From positions 248,001-312,000 of the forward strand of contig JARWBI010000001.1 in the NCBI GenBank assembly GCA_029846755.1: DNA of 64,000 bases, in the 5' to 3' direction. Below the pieces are notes generated by a model that worked only from the letters and a program-made list of their open reading frames with translations, made no database searches and was not told the origin of the DNA. Source of the stretch: Falsirhodobacter flavus. GTDB lineage: Bacteria; Pseudomonadota; Alphaproteobacteria; Rhodobacterales; Rhodobacteraceae. Shown piece after piece: positions 5,326-52,097 of the stretch; the stretch's first letter is position 1, and the number at the start of each line of letters is the position of its first letter. A program made the position numbers and the translations under genes.

Positions 5326-6371
5326 GCGCCCGTTCCTGCATAGAGCCGCTGATAGCGGGTGCCGAGCGAGGTCAGAATCTCGTATCCGATGGTGCCTGCG
5401 GCATCGGCCAGATCGTCGACGCTTTGATGCGGTCCGATCAGGTCCAGCCGTTCGGGCATATGGGCCAGATGCGAGATGTCGACAGTAATCAGGTCCATCG
5501 ACACCCGCCCGACGACGGGACAGGGCGTGCCGCCCGACCAGAGGGTGCAGTTGTTCGACAGGGCGCGGTGGATGCCGTCGGCATAGCCCGCAGCGACGGT
5601 GGCGATGATGCTCGGCCCTTCGGCGCGCCATGTCGCGGAATAGCCCACGACCTCGTCCGCCGCGACTTCGCGCACCTGGATCACCGGCAGCGACAGCACC
5701 AGCGCCGGGGTCCCCGCGTCATAGGGGCGGGCGGCGTAGAGGCCGATACCGGGGCGGGTCAGGTCGAAATGGAATCGCTCGCCCAGCAGAATGCCGCCCG
5801 TGGCCGAAAGCGAGCGAGGAACGCCGCAGCCGTCGGTCATGGCGTGGAATTCAGCAAGCTGTGCCTCATTCATCGGGTGGTCCGGCTCGTCCGCGCAGGC
5901 AAGGTGCGACATGATGATTTCCGGCCCTGCATCCAACAGCAGGGACGCGACCGCCTGCCATTCCGGCATCTCCATCCCCAGACGGTTCATGCCGGTGTCC
6001 AGCTGGATGCCGAAGGCATGGCCGGGCAGCGTTTCCATATGCCGCGTGACCTGGTCGATGGAGTTCAGCATCGGCGTCAGGTCCAGTTCGCGGATCATGT
6101 CGGCATCGCCCGCCATATGCCCCGAGAAGACGTTGATCTGCGGGCCGGGGCCAAGCGCGCCGCGCACGGCGGCTGCCTCTTCGGCCACGGCGACGAAGAA
6201 CCGCCGCGCCCCCGCCTGCGCCAGCGCGCGTGCGATGCGCCCCGCGCCGGTGCCATAGGCGTCCGCCTTCACGACGGCGCCCGTCTGGGTGCCGGGGGCG
6301 GACATGCGGTCCAAGGCGCGCCAATTGGCGGCGATGGCGTCAAGGTCGATGGTAAGGGTCGCGGTTGCCAT
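5322..6371 (-). CDS. alr: Alanine racemase
   Basis: PLP-dependent interconversion of L- and D-alanine, which supplies D-Ala for peptidoglycan. The 349-residue fold-type III enzyme has the PLP lysine at Lys35 in [10 protein letters not shown] and the C-terminal-domain motif GYSATW that carries the catalytic tyrosine. The ATG at 6371 is preferred to an upstream TTG at 6386, because the domain begins at once with [13 protein letters not shown]. It is the first gene of the run alr-mlaE-mlaF-radA-cvpA, all joined by overlaps or very short gaps. It starts 46 nt after ptsP ends. Confidence 0.95.
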
Positions 6372-6417
6372 GGGCCCGTGTTTCAAAGGTCAGCGAAGCA
6401 AGGTCAAGCGGAAAGGC

Positions 6418-8658
6418 TCAATCCGGGTGATCGGCAAGCCATGACATGACCGCCGGACGCACCGTGTCCGATGTCTGCATCGCCTCGTCGATGACGGCCC
6501 GCACTTCGGTCAGATCGACCCGGCGCAGCAGCGCCTTGACCGGGCCGATGGACGCGGGGCGCATGGACAGCGTGCGGATGCCCATGGCGGCAAAGCACAG
6601 CGCCTCCACCGGGCGGCCCGCATCCTCGCCGCAGAAGGACAGGGCGGTGTCGGTCGCCTCGCACCGCGAGACGATCTTGCCGATGAAGGTCAGGAAACTG
6701 ACTGACAGCGTATCGTAACGGCGCCGGACGCGCTCGTTTTCCCGATCGGCCGCAAAGAAGAACTGCTTCAGGTCGTTCCCGCCGATCGAGATGAAATCCA
6801 CCCCGCGGAAGAACCGATCCGGTGCAAAGGCAAGTGCCGGGGTTTCCAGCATCGCTCCGATCTTCATGCTGGTCGGGACGGGATGGCCCAGTTCGGCCTC
6901 GCGCTCCAGCTCCCGCTCCAGCGACTCGCGGGCGATGGCGAATTCGCTGCCCTCGGCGATGAAGGGAAACATTACGGCCATGTCGCGGCCCGCATGGGCG
7001 CGGATCAGCGCCTGAAGCTGCATCCGCAGAACGCCCGGCTTGTCGAGGCCCACGCGGATCGCGCGCCAGCCCATCGCAGGGTTCGGCTCGTCCTGCGGCT
7101 TCATATAGGGAAGGACCTTGTCCGATCCGATGTCCAGCGTGCGGAAGGTCACCGCCTTGCCCTTGGCGGCATCCAGAACTCGGGCATAAAGCCGCGCCAA
7201 TTCGCCGCGCTTGGGCATCTGGTTGCGGATCAGGAATTGCAGCTCGGTGCGGAACAGGCCCACGCCTTCTGCCCCGGAATGGGCCAGCGAGGGCAGATCG
7301 GCCATCAGCCCAGCATTCATGTGCAGCGCCGTCACCTGCCCGCATTTCGACTGCGCCGGAAGGTTGCGCAAGGACGCATAGCGTTCCTGCGCCTGCGCCT
7401 GCATCGCGATCTTGTCGCGGAAGGCGCGGGCGACGTTCTCCTCGGGGCGCAGGTGGACGATGCCCTGATCGCCGTCCACAAGGATCGGGTCGCCGTTCAG
7501 CGCCTCGGCCCCGATGCGTTCGGCATGGATGACCAGCGGGATCGCCAGAGCCCGCGCGACGATGGCCGCATGGCTTCCGACGGAGCCTTCCTCCAGCACG
7601 ATGCCCTTCAGCTTGCGGCCATAATCCAAAAGCTCCGCAGGCCCGATGTTGCGCGCGACCAGCACCGGATCGGCGGGCATCTCGGCCCCCGTATCCTTGC
7701 CTTGCCCCGTCAGGATGCGCAGCAGGCGGTTCGCCAGATCGTCCAGATCGTGCAGACGGTCGCGCAGATAGGCGTCCGGCACCTGTTCCATCCGCGCGCG
7801 CGCCGCCGACTGCTCCTTCTGCACGGCAGCTTCGGCCGACAGGCCAAGCGAGATGTCCTCCTCCATCCGCTTCAGCCAGCCGCGCGAATGGGCGAACATG
7901 CGATAGGCTTCCAGAACCTGCTTCTGTTCCTTGTCCAGCGACGCGGCGGAAAGAAGATCGTCCACCGACACGCGCAGACGGCCCACGGCGTCGCGGATGC
8001 GTTCGATTTCCGTCAGCGGATCGTCGGCAACGGGGTTGGTGACCACCACGCGCGGCTCGTGCAGCCAGACATGACCTTCGGCCGCGCCTTCCTGTCCGGT
8101 GCCGCCGCGGAACATCACCGGATGGCGGTGGGTGCTGGCCAAGGTGTCGCCCTCGCCGTTGAAGGCGCCAAGCTCGGCCATCTCGGCCAGGACCATGGCG
8201 ACCACTTCAAGCGCGTCGATCTCGTCTTCGGAATAAACGCGGGAGTTCTTGGACTGCACCACCAGCACGCCCAGCTTTTCCCCGACCCGCTGGATCGGCA
8301 CGCCGAGGAAGGACGAATACGCCTCCTCGCCGGTTTCGGGCATGTAACGAAAGCCGGGCTGGCCGGGAGCGTCGCTGGTGTTCAGCGGCTTGCCCGCGCG
8401 GGCGACGCGGCCCACCAGACCTTCGCCCAGTTTCAAGCGGGTCTTGTGCACGGATTCGGGCTTAAGCCCTTCGGAAGCGTAAAGCTCCAGCGTTTCGGCA
8501 TCGCGGAACAGGTATATCGAGCAGACCTCGGACCCCATGGAATCCGCGATCAGATGGGTGATGCGGTCCAGCCGGTCCTGACCCTGCCCGGGAAGTGCAA
8601 GGCTGTCGCGCAGCCGCCGAAGCAGCTTGCGACTGTCGCTGTCCGTCCGTTCCGCCAT
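6418..8658 (-). CDS. ptsP: PTS enzyme I-Ntr (PtsP)
   Basis: Phosphoenolpyruvate-protein phosphotransferase of the nitrogen PTS, a regulatory phosphorelay (PEP to PtsP, then NPr and EIIA-Ntr) rather than a sugar transporter. The 746 residues comprise an N-terminal GAF domain (about 15-160), a HPr-binding helical region, the swivelling domain with phospho-acceptor His363 in GSVGSHAAI, and the PEP-binding barrel with the active-site cysteine in SFCGEDAG. The GAF domain distinguishes it from sugar enzyme I. The partners (npr, EIIA-Ntr) are not in this window. Confidence 0.96.
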   Translation of the reverse strand: MAERTDSDSRKLLRRLRDSLALPGQGQDRLDRITHLIADSMGSEVCSIYLFRDAETLELYASEGLKPESVHKTRLKLGEGLVGRVARAGKPLNTSDAPGQPGFRYMPETGEEAYSSFLGVPIQRVGEKLGVLVVQSKNSRVYSEDEIDALEVVAMVLAEMAELGAFNGEGDTLASTHRHPVMFRGGTGQEGAAEGHVWLHEPRVVVTNPVADDPLTEIERIRDAVGRLRVSVDDLLSAASLDKEQKQVLEAYRMFAHSRGWLKRMEEDISLGLSAEAAVQKEQSAARARMEQVPDAYLRDRLHDLDDLANRLLRILTGQGKDTGAEMPADPVLVARNIGPAELLDYGRKLKGIVLEEGSVGSHAAIVARALAIPLVIHAERIGAEALNGDPILVDGDQGIVHLRPEENVARAFRDKIAMQAQAQERYASLRNLPAQSKCGQVTALHMNAGLMADLPSLAHSGAEGVGLFRTELQFLIRNQMPKRGELARLYARVLDAAKGKAVTFRTLDIGSDKVLPYMKPQDEPNPAMGWRAIRVGLDKPGVLRMQLQALIRAHAGRDMAVMFPFIAEGSEFAIARESLERELEREAELGHPVPTSMKIGAMLETPALAFAPDRFFRGVDFISIGGNDLKQFFFAADRENERVRRRYDTLSVSFLTFIGKIVSRCEATDTALSFCGEDAGRPVEALCFAAMGIRTLSMRPASIGPVKALLRRVDLTEVRAVIDEAMQTSDTVRPAVMSWLADHPD

Positions 8659-45529: not shown

Positions 45530-45616
45530 GCGGTCGTGGCGGAATTGGTAGACGCGCAGCGTTGAGGTCGCTGTGGGGTAACTCCCGTGGAAGTTCGAGT
45601 CTTCTCGACCGCACCA
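45530..45616 (+). tRNA. tRNA-Leu (anticodon GAG)
   Basis: An 87-nt class II tRNA including the encoded CCA. Acceptor arms GCGGTCG (45530-45536) and CGACCGC (45606-45612) pair fully. The anticodon arm is CAGCG, loop TTGAGGT, CGCTG, giving anticodon GAG for CTC/CTT codons. A long variable arm (GGGGTAACTCCC region) and the T-loop TTCGAGT follow, as expected for tRNA-Leu. The 3' end could serve as a phage attachment site; no repeat of it was seen in the window. Confidence 0.97.
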
Positions 45617-46066: not shown

Positions 46067-46171
46067 CGGACCTTTCCTTTGTTGCCTGCCCCCAACCTAG
46101 TGCCGCAGCGCAGCGATCCCAACCCGTTGCGGACGTGGCGCGCGGATCGTCACCGACGCCTTAACAGGTTT

Positions 46172-46207: not shown

Positions 46208-46537
46208 ATGGGCGAGATTGTGGTTTTCAGCCTTGGCGCGGCGCTGGCCTGGGCAGGCGGCGAGGGCGGGCGCGTCATCGTTGCCAGCGGGATGGGCGGG
46301 CTGACGCGGTGGATCGCGTCGGACCGCAGGGCACTGCGCGACGGGGTGCTTGCGGTGATCGGCGGGGCAGTGGCGGGGCAATACCTATGGCCAATCGTGC
46401 TGTGGTCGCTGCGGATGGAGGAGACGCCCGACAGCATCGCCATGGCGGCCTTCGTGGCTGGAACCATGGGCATCTCGGGCATCCGCATCGCCGCCGCCAT
46501 GTTCGAGGCCCGCGCCGCCCGGGCCCGCGATGCCTGA
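46208..46537 (+). CDS. Putative holin of lysis cassette
   Basis: A 109-residue membrane protein with two or three hydrophobic segments (IVVFSLGAALAWAG, then DGVLAVIGGAVAGQYLWPIVLW and IAMAAFVAGTMGISGIRIAAAM) and a charged C-terminal tail EARAARARDA. Size, topology and position directly before an endolysin gene fit a phage-type holin, which forms inner-membrane holes; sequence family not recognised by eye. GGAGG at 46198-46202 favours the ATG at 46208 over 46196. The 29-residue ORF overlaps its last 8 nt. Confidence 0.7.
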   Translation: MGEIVVFSLGAALAWAGGEGGRVIVASGMGGLTRWIASDRRALRDGVLAVIGGAVAGQYLWPIVLWSLRMEETPDSIAMAAFVAGTMGISGIRIAAAMFEARAARARDA

Positions 46538-46619
46538 TCCATTCAAACGCATGTGTTTCGAGGAGGCCCGCACATGGGCCGCCGTCACCATCCTTCTGCT
46601 GATCTGGGGACTGTCATGA
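46530..46619 (+). CDS. 29-residue membrane ORF between holin and endolysin
   Basis: MPDPFKRMCFEEARTWAAVTILLLIWGLS: a short polar start and one hydrophobic segment, enough for a single membrane span. It overlaps the holin-like gene by 8 nt and the endolysin ATG by 4 nt (ATGA), so it fills the gap exactly. It might be an antiholin, a second small holin or only a coupling leader that carries ribosomes to the endolysin start. No clear Shine-Dalgarno sequence precedes it; reading by re-initiation from the holin stop is plausible. Confidence 0.45.
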   Translation: MPDPFKRMCFEEARTWAAVTILLLIWGLS

Positions 46620-47212
46620 CCATCACCTTCAAGGGCCGCGCCGAACGTCTGGACGATATCGACCTGCCGGACATCGCGGCCATCATCGGCGTGGGTTACG
46701 CCGAACTGCGCGCGGTGATCGAGGTCGAAACCTCGGGAGGGGGGTTCGACGCGCAGGGCCGCCCCCGGATGCTGTTCGAGCCGCATGTCTTCTGGCGCGA
46801 GCTTCCCGACGCGAAACGCAAGGGGGCGGAGCGGGCGGGGCTTGCCTATCAGAAATGGGGAACACGGCCCTATCCCAAGGACAGCTATCCGCGCCTGACG
46901 CTGGCAATGCTGCTGGACCCCGTCGCGGCGATGCGCTCGGCCAGTTGGGGGATCGGGCAGGTCATGGGCTTCAACCACAAGGCGGCGGGTTACGACAGCG
47001 TGCAGGCGATGGTCGCCGATTTCGTCGATACCGAGGCGGCGCAGCTTGAAGGTATGGTCCGCTTCATCCTGTCCGAAGGGCTGGACGATGAACTGCGCCG
47101 CCACGACTGGTCGGCCTTCGCGCGCGGATACAATGGCGCGGGCTATGCCCAGCACGGGTATCATCTGAAGCTGGCGGCGGCCTATGCCCGCCATTCGCGG
47201 ATCGCGGCATGA
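46616..47212 (+). CDS. N-acetylmuramidase endolysin (DUF3380-type)
   Basis: A 198-residue peptidoglycan hydrolase with an N-acetylmuramidase domain over nearly its whole length: IAAIIGVGYAELRAVIEVETSGGGF (the Glu in EVETSG is the expected catalytic acid), RMLFEPHVFWREL, SYPRLTLAMLLDPVAAMRSASWGIGQVMGFNHKAAGYDS and the closing FARGYNGAGYAQHGYHLKLAAAY. This is the architecture of phage endolysins. No signal peptide, so release would need the holin. The start overlaps the preceding ORF (ATGA) and its stop overlaps the spanin gene (ATGA). Confidence 0.88.
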   Translation: MTITFKGRAERLDDIDLPDIAAIIGVGYAELRAVIEVETSGGGFDAQGRPRMLFEPHVFWRELPDAKRKGAERAGLAYQKWGTRPYPKDSYPRLTLAMLLDPVAAMRSASWGIGQVMGFNHKAAGYDSVQAMVADFVDTEAAQLEGMVRFILSEGLDDELRRHDWSAFARGYNGAGYAQHGYHLKLAAAYARHSRIAA

Positions 47213-47493
47213 GGTATGCGATCCTTGCCGCACTGCTGATTGCCACCGCCGCGCAGGCCTATCGCATGGGCGTGTCGGCCGAGGCGACCCGCGCCGCGCT
47301 GAGACTGGCCGAGGCGCAGCGTGCCGCGGTGCAGGCGGCCGATCTGGCCGCGCTGGCCGAATCGCGGCGTCTGGCCCTGCAGGCCGAACGCGACCTTCTT
47401 GCCCAAACCCTGGAGGATGCCGCCCATGCGGACCCCGATGCTTCTGTGCTTGCCCTTGGCGCTGACAGCGTGCGCCGCCTTAACCGTCGTTGA
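47209..47493 (+). CDS. Putative inner-membrane spanin (Rz-like)
   Basis: A 94-residue protein with an N-terminal hydrophobic segment (YAILAALLIATAAQAY, residues 3-18) followed by a continuous Ala/Leu/Arg-rich, helix-forming stretch (about 22-80) suited to a periplasmic coiled coil. This is the i-spanin plan: membrane anchor outside-in plus coiled coil. It starts on the endolysin stop (ATGA), and a lipoprotein ORF starts inside its 3' end in another frame, exactly as Rz/Rz1 pairs do. Family by layout, not by sequence similarity. Confidence 0.7.
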   Translation: MRYAILAALLIATAAQAYRMGVSAEATRAALRLAEAQRAAVQAADLAALAESRRLALQAERDLLAQTLEDAAHADPDASVLALGADSVRRLNRR

Positions 47494-47641
47494 GCCTGCG
47501 CCGCCGCCCAGCCTGACCGCGCCCTGCGCCCAGCCGCAATTCTTGCCAGACCGTGCCCTGACCCGCGCCGAGGTCGAGGTGCTTTGGGGGCGTGACCGCA
47601 GCGCGCTTCGAACCTGCGGCGACAGGATGGCCCTGCGGTGA
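47426..47641 (+). CDS. Putative outer-membrane spanin lipoprotein (Rz1-like), nested
   Basis: A 71-residue lipoprotein: signal MRTPMLLCLPLALTAC with lipobox LTAC (Cys16), then a proline-rich start VVEPAPPPSLTAPC and a short tail. It overlaps the last 68 nt of the i-spanin gene in a different frame, the embedded-overlap arrangement of phage o-spanins. GGAGG at 47412-47416 stands 9 nt before ATG 47426. In phage systems the two spanins connect the membranes and complete lysis. Confidence 0.68.
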   Translation: MRTPMLLCLPLALTACAALTVVEPAPPPSLTAPCAQPQFLPDRALTRAEVEVLWGRDRSALRTCGDRMALR

Positions 47642-47777: not shown

Positions 47778-48893
47778 ATGACAGGGAGACTGAATGTGGT
47801 TGCCGATCTCGGCGGCGGTTTCGTCGTGTTCGACCATGTGCAGAAAAGCTATGACGGCGAAACGCTGGTGGTCAAAGATCTGAACCTTTCCATCGCGAAA
47901 GGGGAATTCCTGACCATGCTCGGGCCGTCCGGTTCGGGCAAGACGACCTGCCTGATGATGCTGGCTGGGTTCGAGACGGCGACGGCGGGCGACATCCGGC
48001 TGGACGGGCGCCCGATCAACGCCGTGCCGCCCCACAAGCGTGGCATCGGCATGGTGTTCCAGAACTATGCCCTGTTTCCTCACATGACCGTGGCCGAAAA
48101 CCTCGCCTTCCCTCTGGAAGTGCGGGGCATGGGCAGATCGGAACGCGAGGCGAAGATCAAGCGCGCGCTGGACATGGTGCAGATGGGCGCGTTCGGCGCG
48201 CGCCGTCCGGCGCAGCTTTCGGGCGGGCAGCAGCAGCGCATCGCACTGGCCCGTGCGCTGGTCTTCGATCCAAAGCTGGTGCTGATGGATGAACCGCTTG
48301 GCGCGCTGGACAAGCAGTTGCGCGAACACATGCAGTTCGAGATCAAGCGCCTGCACGACGATCTGGGCATCACCGTCGTCTATGTCACCCACGATCAGGG
48401 CGAGGCGTTGACCATGTCGGACCGGATCGCGGTGTTCAACGACGGACGCATCCAGCAGCTTGCACCCCCCGCCGCGTTGTATGAAACCCCCGAAAACCTG
48501 TTCGTCGCCAGCTTCATCGGCGAGAACAACCGGCTGGAGGGCACCATCGAGGAGGTGGGGCCGCGCTCGCTCGTCCGGCTGCGAACGGGCGAGCTGATCG
48601 ACGCGACCCCGGTGAACGTTCACCAGAAGGGTCAGCGCACCATCGTGTCGATCCGCCCCGAACGGGTGGAGTTCAAGCCGGACATGATGCCCGCCAGCGC
48701 CCATACGCTGGACGCGAAGGTGCTGGAGGTCGTCTATATGGGCGACATCCTTCGGACCCGCATGCAGGTGGCGGGCAGCGACGATTTCATCATGAAATGC
48801 CGCAACACGATCGGCCAGACCCGGCTGGAACCGGGCCAGACGGTGCGGATCGGTTGGCACCCTGCAGACGCGCGTGCGCTCGACCCGCTTTAA
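47778..48893 (+). CDS. Polyamine-type ABC transporter ATPase (PotA-like)
   Basis: A 371-residue ABC ATPase of the spermidine/putrescine (COG3842) type: Walker A GPSGSGKTTC, Q-loop FQNYALFPHMTVAENLAFPL, signature LSGGQQQRIALARAL, Walker B LVLMDEPLGALDKQLREHMQ, H-loop VYVTHDQ, and a C-terminal TOBE domain from about residue 285 (VSIRPERVEF). It forms one operon with a binding protein and two permeases. Start could also be the in-frame GTG at 47796, which has GGGAGA upstream; both give an intact ATPase domain. Confidence 0.9.
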   Translation: MTGRLNVVADLGGGFVVFDHVQKSYDGETLVVKDLNLSIAKGEFLTMLGPSGSGKTTCLMMLAGFETATAGDIRLDGRPINAVPPHKRGIGMVFQNYALFPHMTVAENLAFPLEVRGMGRSEREAKIKRALDMVQMGAFGARRPAQLSGGQQQRIALARALVFDPKLVLMDEPLGALDKQLREHMQFEIKRLHDDLGITVVYVTHDQGEALTMSDRIAVFNDGRIQQLAPPAALYETPENLFVASFIGENNRLEGTIEEVGPRSLVRLRTGELIDATPVNVHQKGQRTIVSIRPERVEFKPDMMPASAHTLDAKVLEVVYMGDILRTRMQVAGSDDFIMKCRNTIGQTRLEPGQTVRIGWHPADARALDPL

Positions 48894-48909
48894 AACAGGG
48901 AGAACTGCA

Positions 48910-49974
48910 ATGAAGAAACTTCTGGTTCTGACGGCGGCGCTGATGGCCCCTGCGGCCCATGCGGACGTCACATTTCTTGGCTGGGGCGGTGCCTATGGCC
49001 GCGCCCAGACCGAGGCGCATCTGAAACCCTTCACCGAAGCGACGGGCATCCGCACGGTGATGACCGACACCGACAACCCCGCCGCGCCCGTCAAGGCGAT
49101 GGTCGAGGCGAACAACGTCACCGCCAACCTCGTGTCGCTGGAGCAGGCCGACGTGATCCGCCTGTGCGACGAAGGGCTGCTGGAGGAGATCGACCCCGCA
49201 AGCCTTGCGCCCGCGCCCGACGGCACGCCGGCGGCGGATGATTTCCTGCCCGGCGCGCTGACCGATTGCGGCGTGGCGACGGATGTATGGGCCACGGTCT
49301 TCGCCTATGACGACAGCCGCTTCCCGGATGCCAAGCCTACGACCATCGCCGATTTCTTCGATCTGGAGAAATTTCCCGGCAAACGCGGCATCCGCAAGGG
49401 TGCGAAGACCACGCTGGAAATGGCGCTGATGGCCGATGGCGTTCCCGCGTCCGAAGTCTATGACATGCTTGAGACGCCCGAAGGGATCGACCGCGCCTTT
49501 GCCAAGCTGGACACGATCAAGTCCGAGGTCGTCTGGTGGGAAGCCGGCGCCCAGCCGCCGCAGCTTCTAGCCGATGGCGAGGTGGTGATGTCCACCGTCT
49601 ATAACGGCCGGATCTTTGCCGCCGCCATGAACGAGAACAAACCCTTCGTCACCGTCTGGGACGGGATGCAGTATGAATTCGAGGTCTATGCCATCCCCAA
49701 GGGCGCGCCCGATCTGGACGACGCGATGCAGTTCCTCAGCTGGTCCACGGAAACGCAGAACCTAGCGAACCTGACGAAATACATCAGCTATGGCCCGACG
49801 CGCAAATCCACCGCCGCGGTGAAGAAGACGTGGGAGGATGGGACCACCGACATGGAAGCGCATCTGCCGACCTCGCCGCAGAACATGACCAATTCGCTGG
49901 AAACCTCGTTCGAGTTCTGGGTCGATTACGACAGTGAATTGAACGAGCGTTTCAACGCTTGGCTCGCAAGCTGA
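48910..49974 (+). CDS. Periplasmic polyamine-type substrate-binding protein
   Basis: A 354-residue extracellular solute-binding protein of the PotD/PotF (COG0687) type: signal peptide MKKLLVLTAALMAPAAHA, then VTFLGWGGAYGRAQTEAHLKPFTEATGIRT and a two-lobed fold with VWWEAGAQPPQLLADGEV. The likely ligand is a polyamine or related compound such as an opine-like amine; binding residues cannot be confirmed by eye. ATG at 48910 follows GGGAG. Its stop overlaps the first permease start by one base. Confidence 0.88.
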   Translation: MKKLLVLTAALMAPAAHADVTFLGWGGAYGRAQTEAHLKPFTEATGIRTVMTDTDNPAAPVKAMVEANNVTANLVSLEQADVIRLCDEGLLEEIDPASLAPAPDGTPAADDFLPGALTDCGVATDVWATVFAYDDSRFPDAKPTTIADFFDLEKFPGKRGIRKGAKTTLEMALMADGVPASEVYDMLETPEGIDRAFAKLDTIKSEVVWWEAGAQPPQLLADGEVVMSTVYNGRIFAAAMNENKPFVTVWDGMQYEFEVYAIPKGAPDLDDAMQFLSWSTETQNLANLTKYISYGPTRKSTAAVKKTWEDGTTDMEAHLPTSPQNMTNSLETSFEFWVDYDSELNERFNAWLAS

Positions 49975-51182
49975 TGGAGGGGCGCCCGCTGAAACAGGCA
50001 CTGGCCCGCGCGCAGTCGCGGGCCAAGCGGCGGGCGCTGCTTCTGGTCGTGCCGCTTTTGCTGTTCATCGTCGTGACCTTCGTGGCACCGATCGGACAGA
50101 TGCTGCTGCGGTCGGTCCACAACGACGCCTTCGCCCGCAACATGCCCAATGTCGGCGCGTGGTTTGCGGAAAACGACGGCGCCCCGACCGAGGATGCCTT
50201 CGCCGCGCTGGTGGCCGACCTGCGTCTTGCGCGCGAAAACCGCACGGCGGGCGAGGTCGGCACCCGCATCAATTACGAACTTGGCGGCACGCGGTCGCTG
50301 TTCACCTCGGGCGCGCGGGGGGCGGATGATCTGGAGCCGCCCTTCGCGACATCGCTGGTCGAGGATGACGCGAAATGGGCCGACCCGCAGCTCTGGCAGG
50401 TGATGCGGACGGCCAGTTCCGCCTATACTGCTAGCTTCTATCTTGCCGCGCTGGACCTGACGCGCGACGGCGACGGCAACATCGTCCGCGTGCCGGAGGG
50501 GCGGGCGGTCTATCTGGCGCTGTTTGCCAAGACCTTCGCGCTGTCGGCGCTGATAACGGCGATCTGCCTTCTGCTCGGTTATCCGGTGGCGCATCTGCTG
50601 GCGACGCTGCCGCTGGCGAAATCGAACCTCTTGATGATCCTCGTGCTGCTGCCGTTCTGGACCTCGCTTCTGGTGCGGACAACAAGCTGGATGGTGCTGC
50701 TTCAGGAACAGGGGGTCATCAACAACACGCTGGTCGCAACGGGCATCACAGATACGCGGCTGCCGATGATCTATAACCAGACCGGCACGGTGATCGCGAT
50801 GGTGCATATCCTGCTGCCGTTCATGATCCTGCCGCTCTATTCCGTGATGCGGCCGATCCGCCCGCATTACGTCCGCGCGGCCCGCAGCCTTGGCGCGACA
50901 AGCTGGACCGCATTCCGCCGCGTGTATCTGCCGCAGACCGTGCCGGGGATCGGGGCGGGGGCGCTTTTGGTCTTCATCCTTGCCGTCGGCTATTACATCA
51001 CGCCCGCGCTGGTGGGCGGGGCGTCGGGGCAGCTGATCTCGAACCTGATCGCCTATCACATGCAGGACAGCCTGAACTGGTCGATGGCGGCGGCGCTGGC
51101 GGCGATCCTGTTGGCGGCGGTGCTGCTGCTGTATTGGCTCTATGACCGGCTGATCGGCATCGACAACATGAAGCTGGGGTGA
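49974..51182 (+). CDS. ABC transporter permease, polyamine type, with large periplasmic insert
   Basis: A 402-residue inner-membrane protein with the usual six-helix permease core (about 178-400) carrying the EAA-type coupling loop YVRAARSLGATSWTAFRRVYLPQTVPGI. After the first helix (about 18-41) comes a soluble segment of about 130 residues (45-175) that is absent from minimal PotB-like permeases and would face the periplasm. The ATG overlaps the binding-protein stop (TGATG). It pairs with the second permease directly downstream. Confidence 0.87.
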   Translation: MEGRPLKQALARAQSRAKRRALLLVVPLLLFIVVTFVAPIGQMLLRSVHNDAFARNMPNVGAWFAENDGAPTEDAFAALVADLRLARENRTAGEVGTRINYELGGTRSLFTSGARGADDLEPPFATSLVEDDAKWADPQLWQVMRTASSAYTASFYLAALDLTRDGDGNIVRVPEGRAVYLALFAKTFALSALITAICLLLGYPVAHLLATLPLAKSNLLMILVLLPFWTSLLVRTTSWMVLLQEQGVINNTLVATGITDTRLPMIYNQTGTVIAMVHILLPFMILPLYSVMRPIRPHYVRAARSLGATSWTAFRRVYLPQTVPGIGAGALLVFILAVGYYITPALVGGASGQLISNLIAYHMQDSLNWSMAAALAAILLAAVLLLYWLYDRLIGIDNMKLG

Positions 51183-51185
51183 TCC

Positions 51186-52097
51186 ATGGCGCTTCCGATC
51201 TATGCAACCCCGCTGGAGCGCATCTGGTATTACGCCTACCGCGTGATCTGCGCGTTGATCTTTTTGTTCCTGATCGCGCCGATCCTGATCGTGATCCCGC
51301 TGTCCTTCAACGCCGAGCCGTATTTCACCTTCACCCAAAAGATGCTCTCGCTGGACCCCATGGGATACAGCCTGCGCTGGTATGACACGCTGCTGACCTT
51401 CGGGATGCAGGCGCCCGACGTGCCGCGCGATGCGTCGTGGTGGCGCGATGCGTGGACGAATGCGCGCTGGGTCGGGGTGGCCAAGAACTCGGTCATCGTG
51501 GGTGTGTTTTCGACCATCATTGCGACGGTCCTCGGCACGCTGTCCGCGCTGGGCCTCTCGCGCCCGGAAATGCCGTTCCGCCGGACGATCATGGCGATCC
51601 TGATCTCGCCCATGATCGTGCCGATCATCATCACGGCGACGGGGCTCTTCTTCTTCTATTCCAGCATCCAGATCCGCGAATGGGGGGTGCCTTACCTTGG
51701 CGTCGTGCTGGCCCATGCGACTTTGGGCATCCCCTTCGTCATCATCACCGTGACGGCGACGCTGGTGGGGTTCGACCATTCGCTGACCCGCGCGGCGGCC
51801 TCGCTTGGGGCGAACCCGCGCACGGTGTTCCGCAAGGTGATCCTGCCGCTGATCCTGCCCGGCATGATCTCGGGCGCGCTGTTCGCATTCGTGACGTCGT
51901 TCGACGAGGTGGTGGTGGTCATGTTCATCGCCGGCCCGGACGAACAGACCATCCCGCGCCAGATGTGGAACGGCATCCGCGAAAGCATCAGCCCGGCGAT
52001 CCTGGCGGTTGCGACGATCCTCGTCGTCATCTCGGTCCTGCTTCTGGCGGCGGTGGAGCTGCTGCGCCGCCGGTCCGAACGGCTGCGCGGGCTTTAG
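51186..52097 (+). CDS. ABC transporter permease, PotC-like
   Basis: A 303-residue permease with six membrane segments (ALIFLFLIAPILIVIPLSF first, LAVATILVVISVLLLAAVELL last) and the EAA loop HSLTRAAASLGANPRTVFRKVILPLILPGM. It begins 3 nt after the first permease gene stops and completes the operon ATPase-binding protein-two permeases. It converges on the AEC gene with a 4-nt overlap. Confidence 0.9.
   Translation: MALPIYATPLERIWYYAYRVICALIFLFLIAPILIVIPLSFNAEPYFTFTQKMLSLDPMGYSLRWYDTLLTFGMQAPDVPRDASWWRDAWTNARWVGVAKNSVIVGVFSTIIATVLGTLSALGLSRPEMPFRRTIMAILISPMIVPIIITATGLFFFYSSIQIREWGVPYLGVVLAHATLGIPFVIITVTATLVGFDHSLTRAAASLGANPRTVFRKVILPLILPGMISGALFAFVTSFDEVVVVMFIAGPDEQTIPRQMWNGIRESISPAILAVATILVVISVLLLAAVELLRRRSERLRGL

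Follow-up and report, generated by a model that had tools for sequence, protein, structure and literature searches.

What a set of phage-type lysis genes does when it stands by itself among cellular genes, and whether it could serve the release of gene transfer agent (GTA) particles, is the question raised by a locus of Falsirhodobacter flavus (Rhodobacteraceae) at positions 46208-47641 of the window, the window being the whole 64,000-nt stretch of DNA that was analysed (contig JARWBI010000001.1, positions 248,001 to 312,000). The initial annotation of the locus had offered two readings, a GTA release locus or a domesticated phage remnant. A cell that produces GTAs dies in the process, and it is a matter of debate whether selection favors such production. 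The question of selection on GTA production has been raised in PMC6209664. The rcc00555 and rcc00556 lysis genes of Rhodobacter capsulatus are described as lying apart from the structural cluster (PMC8601537; PMC3423380; PMC6854486), as the initial annotation had stated for the holin and endolysin of that organism, and they are co-expressed with the GTA (PMC4158056).

A five-gene lysis cassette

The ORF list of the window bears out the five overlapping ORFs initially annotated on the forward strand at 46208-47641; successive ORFs overlap by 8, 4, and 4 nt at the first three boundaries, and the start of the fifth ORF lies within the fourth. The first gene (46208-46537) encodes a holin-like membrane protein of 109 aa with hydrophobic segments; its sole family match is phrog_13918 (8e-7), a family of unknown function, it has no match to PF11351 in the Pfam scan, and 33 of its columns are invariant across six orthologues. 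The second ORF (46530-46619) encodes 29 aa with a single membrane segment and gave no match in the family scans, and its product is possibly an antiholin or a second holin part; an unlabelled small ORF likewise lies between holin and endolysin in the RcC phages of R. capsulatus, as they are presented in PMC8601537. The third gene (46616-47212) encodes an N-acetylmuramidase endolysin of 198 aa, recognized by its PF11860 domain (E = 2e-53) together with a catalytic glutamate. When aligned with PDB 5NM7, the PF11860 endolysin AP3gp15, its Glu38 (codon 46727-46729) falls on residue 101, and Glu101 of AP3gp15 is reported as catalytic on the basis of mutation (PMC5674055). The two enzymes share the same family of catalytic domain, but AP3gp15 carries an extra peptidoglycan-binding domain.

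The last two genes encode an i-spanin-like protein of 94 aa (47209-47493) and an Rz1-like o-spanin lipoprotein of 71 aa (47426-47641; 74 aa if an earlier ATG is used), the latter nested out of frame within the gene of the former. The o-spanin has a lipobox (LTAC) and matches phrog_456 (3.2e-7) and PF23793 (2.5e-6), in the second case with 27.8 bits, barely above the cut-off of 27. The i-spanin-like ORF returned only sub-threshold, chance-like matches in the family scans, and its label follows from an N-terminal hydrophobic segment, its position, and its nested partner. The pair thus has the make-up of an Rz/Rz1-type two-gene spanin, with a membrane-anchored i-spanin that lacks a family match and a nested lipoprotein o-spanin. 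Of the full lysis set initially annotated, therefore, the muramidase and the o-spanin stand by family match, while the labels ‘holin’ and ‘i-spanin’ are assigned from membrane segments, gene order, and overlap. The cassette as such is real, and it is more than a chance arrangement because its gene order recurs in the other genomes of the genus and because one viral contig carries all five genes.

Chromosomal neighborhood

A family scan of 12 neighboring proteins between 40.9 and 54.6 kb of the window found cellular Pfam families for 10 of them, no family for the other two, and no phage gene, in agreement with the annotated absence of phage genes on either side. In three relatives (L080, L081, and L082), nine of 10 scanned flanking proteins are cellular, one is unmatched, and none is of phage type. 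The integrase, structural, and regulatory genes of a prophage are hence absent among the neighbors scanned (12 in the window and 10 in relatives), and the cassette is carried among cellular genes in relatives too, whereas its occurrence solely inside prophages had been named at the outset as an outcome that would refute a release locus.

The neighbors of the cassette vary by species, the cassette being kept while its flanks were rearranged. A tRNA-Leu(GAG) gene (45530-45616, forward strand) and lipB lie upstream of it in five of the seven Falsirhodobacter genomes. Integration at this tRNA gene was considered as a possibility: apart from two scattered 12-mers, the window holds no second copy of the tRNA-Leu end of at least 12 nt, and the adjoining tRNA is a different one in two species. 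An ABC transporter follows the cassette immediately on its 3' side in the window and in one other genome (G154) among the seven. Its genes, for an ATPase, a binding protein, and two permeases (47778-52097), stand between the cassette and a downstream membrane transporter and are absent from that place in G149, G150, and G153; the block is likely a later insertion.

Conservation, selection, and phage origin

The genus set comprised seven Falsirhodobacter genomes, that of the window (G000) and six relatives; named matches were found in ‘Rhodobacter xinxiangensis’ (98%; now Falsirhodobacter), F. deserti (80%), and Falsirhodobacter sp. alg1 (78%). All seven genomes encode the cassette muramidase with its catalytic glutamate, all seven carry the holin-like gene, the small ORF (29-31 aa, at the same place), and the muramidase gene in this order, and six carry the spanin pair. 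In Falsirhodobacter sp. 20TX0035 (G153; L082, about 5600-6600), the two spanin genes have been lost, and none of the other six muramidases has diverged as far as that of this strain (71%). Muramidase pN/pS ranges from 0.04 to 0.27 over six species pairs, and that of the GTA capsid from 0.04 to 0.26 over 21 pairs; judged by the former, the cassette muramidases are under purifying selection. The other four genes are held more loosely, with pN/pS reaching 0.83 for the 29-aa ORF.

The seven cassette muramidases group as a single clade (100/99) in a tree of 118 rows, within a background of viral and prophage enzymes, although bootstrap analysis is not quite settled. The cassette muramidase is the only PF11860-type match in five of the seven genomes, and the further PF11860 copies of the remaining two (G151 and G153) fall outside the cassette clade. 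G151 has seven further muramidase matches, full or partial (L017, L019, and L021-L025), presumably in prophages.

Among 146 loci that were searched with profiles of the five cassette proteins, 80 of them viral, 19 matched a component other than the muramidase, including the cassettes of Falsirhodobacter itself; the viral share was nine of 80. One viral contig (L176; IMGVR_UViG_3300046002_006203) carries counterparts of all five genes in unchanged order, there within a phage genome. In a second (L246), a holin gene (64%) precedes a small ORF (profile E no better than 0.13) and then an ORF that is amidase-like by eye. Both holin relatives emerged from profile searches of individual loci; in tblastn against 50,697 phage records, neither the holin-like protein nor the holin of L246 had a relative. 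Paracoccus phage vB_PbeS_Pben1 has a holin with a small ORF and a muramidase of 72% identity, in separate places. These relationships suggest that the cassette is phage-derived and was probably acquired once by the Falsirhodobacter lineage, such that the seven genomes represent one evolutionary change and not seven tests.

Presence of a GTA cluster and absence of the canonical release pair

A genome without a GTA cluster would have told against a release locus; such a cluster is present on contig C47 of the same genome. It is of the RcGTA type, with matches to terminase, portal, protease, HK97 capsid, DUF2460, NlpC/P60, and GTA TIM-barrel genes, and its capsid matches Rcc01687 of R. capsulatus in the PDB (1e-186). 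The GTA capsid gene occurs in seven of seven Falsirhodobacter genomes.

The holin of the R. capsulatus-type release pair belongs to PF11351 (GTA_holin_3TM; ‘Holin of 3TMs, for gene-transfer release’ in Pfam), which was found in 126 of 149 family genomes, sampled at one per genus with that of the window included. None of the seven Falsirhodobacter genomes encodes it. Nor did any of the seven match PF05838 (GH108), in a search without a positive control genome, though with a model that matches the GH108 enzymes of three canonical loci. Twelve loci were inspected, each from a genome with a strong capsid match, and all 12 have the order ccmE, GH108, and GTA holin; argC precedes ccmE in 11 and argS follows the pair in six. 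Falsirhodobacter retains argC-ccmE (7/7), and the 8-9 kb after ccmE contain no GH108 or holin match better than E 0.07 and no argS in any of the seven; the cassette lies elsewhere. GTA_holin_3TM matches in four other family genomes (G034, G077, G104, and G132) are confined to roughly the C-terminal half (64-123) of the model, and these holins are possibly a shortened form.

The position of rcc00555 was traced with its promoter primers, published in PMC6854486. The forward primer fits argC with one mismatch in L118 and three in L120, and the reverse primer fits best at a TTAACC site, with six and five mismatches of 20 respectively, 1048 and 1041 bp from the forward-primer sites. In the other 15 sequences, the best fit of the reverse primer was not at such a site 3' of argC, or was at background level. 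The primer fits in these relatives support a placement of rcc00555 at the argC-ccmE locus.

The cassette resembles rcc00555/rcc00556 in several respects: both combine a stand-alone muralytic enzyme and a holin away from the GTA cluster, both have a CtrA-type half-site before the operon, and both are found in a genome with a GTA capsid. They differ in that the cassette has a PF11860 enzyme in place of GH108, a holin without PF11351, another chromosomal place, a reversed gene order, and three extra genes that include the spanins. Homology to the R. capsulatus genes, which had been entertained without confirmation in the initial annotation, is rejected, those genes being a GH108 enzyme and a GTA_holin_3TM beside argC-ccmE. 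GTA release that does not employ genes of the rcc00555/rcc00556 type has a parallel in LypABC of Caulobacter crescentus, which is described as having immunity-type domains in an account that reports no holin-endolysin homologues in that organism (PMC13236601).

A putative CtrA half-site upstream of the cassette

The lysis genes of R. capsulatus are reported to need both CtrA and GafA, acting together; GafA binds their promoter, which has predicted CtrA half-sites (PMC6363796; PMC9638019). In the window, TTAAC occurs at 46161-46165 on the forward strand, 47 nt 5' of the first start codon of the cassette, and TTAA is found 47-50 nt before that codon in all seven genomes of the genus, being TTAAC in six and TTAAT in L081. 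A comparison was made with 27 canonical loci, reduced to 26 by leaving out L161, which has no GH108 gene. In 21 of these 26, a TTAAC is located 30-65 nt 5' of the GH108 start, against a mean of 0.5 and a maximum of four in 500 shuffles; with automatically chosen starts, 16 of 26 have TTAA at 46-51 nt. For the remaining genes called in the loci compared, TTAAC occurs in the 30-65 nt interval in seven of 109 (Fisher 4e-6), two of which are cassette holins, leaving five of 107. The TTAA(C) before the cassette is thus a putative CtrA-type half-site at the canonical distance. No TTAA occurs within 150 nt upstream in either of the phage relatives, L176 and L246, and this is a further difference between L176 and the cassette.

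A promoter profile was also built from 23 canonical sites with the half-site itself excluded, three of the 26 loci being left out for want of a TTAA. Against shuffles, it scored p 0.001 in the window, 0.000 in L083, 0.009 in L079, and 0.042 in L080, and was not significant in L082 (0.08), L078 (0.22), or L081 (0.52); combined without L083, p is 1e-4.

Distribution across the family

The initial annotation had suggested examining whether the cassette co-occurs with the GTA structural cluster. Within the genus, the cassette and the GTA capsid gene occur together in seven of seven genomes; across the family most genomes with a capsid have the other pair. The relationship there is not simple, as the canonical pair also occurs in genomes that lack a GTA capsid. 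PF11351 was found in 102 of 114 strong-capsid genomes (118 less G036, G070, G092, and G144, whose capsid matches are weak or partial), compared to 24 of 35 genomes with no or weak capsid (p 0.006). Thirteen loci of no-capsid genomes were read (L151-L163; G003, G013, G018, G043, G055, G141, G123, G140, G076, G111, G104, G079, and G137), and a GH108-holin pair follows ccmE in 12 of them and a piece of the holin in one, often with TTAAC upstream of the pair. Its retention where no capsid was matched shows that even the canonical pair has no strict tie to GTAs; it seems either to persist after the GTA is gone or to serve another purpose as well.

PF11351 is missing from 12 of the strong-capsid genomes. 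Of the 11 besides that of the window, ccmE was found in nine; in eight, where the sequence continues, no pair stands beside it, and in the ninth (G133; L247) the contig ends about 107 nt after ccmE and is uninformative. A PF11860 match occurs in five of the 12, compared to one of the 102 strong-capsid genomes with PF11351 (Fisher 3e-5). A family-wide rule by which PF11860 replaces PF11351 is nevertheless not adopted here, since the muramidases of the other four genomes concerned (G004, G008, G048, and G083) are different, mostly larger, and placed elsewhere in the tree. Up to 160 nt read upstream of these four muramidases contain no TTAA, and a holin-like neighbor was seen, by eye, in G048 only. 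The site after ccmE that holds the GTA lysis pair in relatives is occupied in G048 by three small ORFs (L249:2170-2913) of 59, 43, and 142 aa without a family match; on visual inspection, the first and the third resemble membrane proteins. Seven strong-capsid genomes have neither lysis module (G019, G054, G094, G101, G125, G133, and G147). Four of these (G054, G094, G101, and G125; L251, L250, L255, and L248) have no pair beside ccmE and no PF11860.

Proposed role of the cassette and alternative explanations

It is well supported that the canonical pair is missing from Falsirhodobacter and that the genus retains a phage cassette whose half-site has the canonical spacing, and replacement of the pair by the cassette is likewise well supported. 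We consider it probable that a phage cassette took the place of the ancestral GTA release pair as a host-controlled chromosomal lysis module, and release of GTA particles by the cassette would be the most economical reading of its present role. That reading agrees with the joint presence of capsid and cassette in seven of seven genomes, the canonical holin in none, and the canonical position of the half-site. Weighed against it are PF11351 in 24 of the 35 genomes with no or weak capsid, the loss of the spanins in G153, the TTAAT of L081, and the non-significant promoter profiles of L078, L081, and L082. Under the proposed mechanism, a late promoter with the CtrA half-site would turn on the operon in GTA-producing cells, presumably under CtrA and GafA, as at the R. 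capsulatus lysis genes; the holin-like protein would open the inner membrane, perhaps timed by the 29-aa protein; the muramidase would cut the glycan via Glu38; and the spanin pair would disrupt the outer membrane, allowing particles to escape. The first of the two readings in the initial annotation, a GTA release locus, accordingly fits the capsid, the absent canonical holin, and the half-site, with release itself the step proposed here. In the second, ‘domesticated’ fits and ‘remnant’ fits poorly, save in the species without spanins.

Other uses of the same genes have to be weighed. In type 10 secretion systems, a phage-derived set of holin, peptidoglycan hydrolase, and spanins releases particular proteins, lytically or not; in Serratia, chiWXYZ, a chromosomal set of this kind, is reported to release chitinase (PMC13284979). 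The cassette has the parts on that published list, a peptidoglycan hydrolase and a presumptive holin outside a phage, and a role other than GTA release would also suit the canonical pair in capsid-less genomes, so that type 10 secretion is a live rival, if an unlikely one. It differs from chiWXYZ in that no cargo gene was recognized among the 12 scanned neighbors, which moreover vary by species, although a cargo might be encoded elsewhere, and secretion by itself would leave the loss of the GTA holin in the genus and the shared half-site unexplained, both of which point to the GTA. CtrA-controlled programmed lysis that coexists with the GTA without releasing it, whether for self-sacrifice, DNA release, or biofilm turnover, appears rather doubtful: it would account for the half-site in all seven genomes and for the canonical pair with its half-site in genomes without a capsid match, but the half-site-bearing lysis genes of R. 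capsulatus are described as serving GTA release (PMC3423380; PMC6363796) and the swap occurred in a genus with a capsid in seven of seven genomes.

It is very improbable that the cassette is a functionless prophage remnant in decay. The phage origin of the cassette, the tRNA adjoining it in most species, and the loss of spanins in G153 would be expected of such a remnant, whereas the intact frames in the window, the low muramidase pN/pS across the genus, the retention of the cassette while its flanks were rearranged, and the lack of any phage gene among the scanned neighbors of the window, L080, L081, and L082 speak against it. We give still less credence to a lysis module for another phage-derived particle, such as a tailocin or a resident prophage; the further muramidases of the same family in G151 and G153 invite this explanation, but those copies lie outside the cassette clade, and five of the seven genomes have no muramidase match besides that of the cassette.

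Implications for GTA release

A fairly probable generalization is that the genes for GTA release can be exchanged: the ancestral two-gene pair would have been lost and the cassette would have taken over under a late promoter of the same CtrA-type layout, selection having preserved lysis and when it happens rather than particular genes. No paper combining Falsirhodobacter and gene transfer agents was found in the open-access literature searched, and the titles and abstract openings screened there describe no such replacement of GTA lysis genes. Swapped release genes with the same control site at the same distance would, if the proposal is correct, be evidence that selection maintains lytic release, and the canonical pair in capsid-less genomes raises the question of its role there. 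In that case the cassette would, moreover, bring spanins into GTA lysis, whereas the inspected canonical loci have no spanins between the holin and the next gene.
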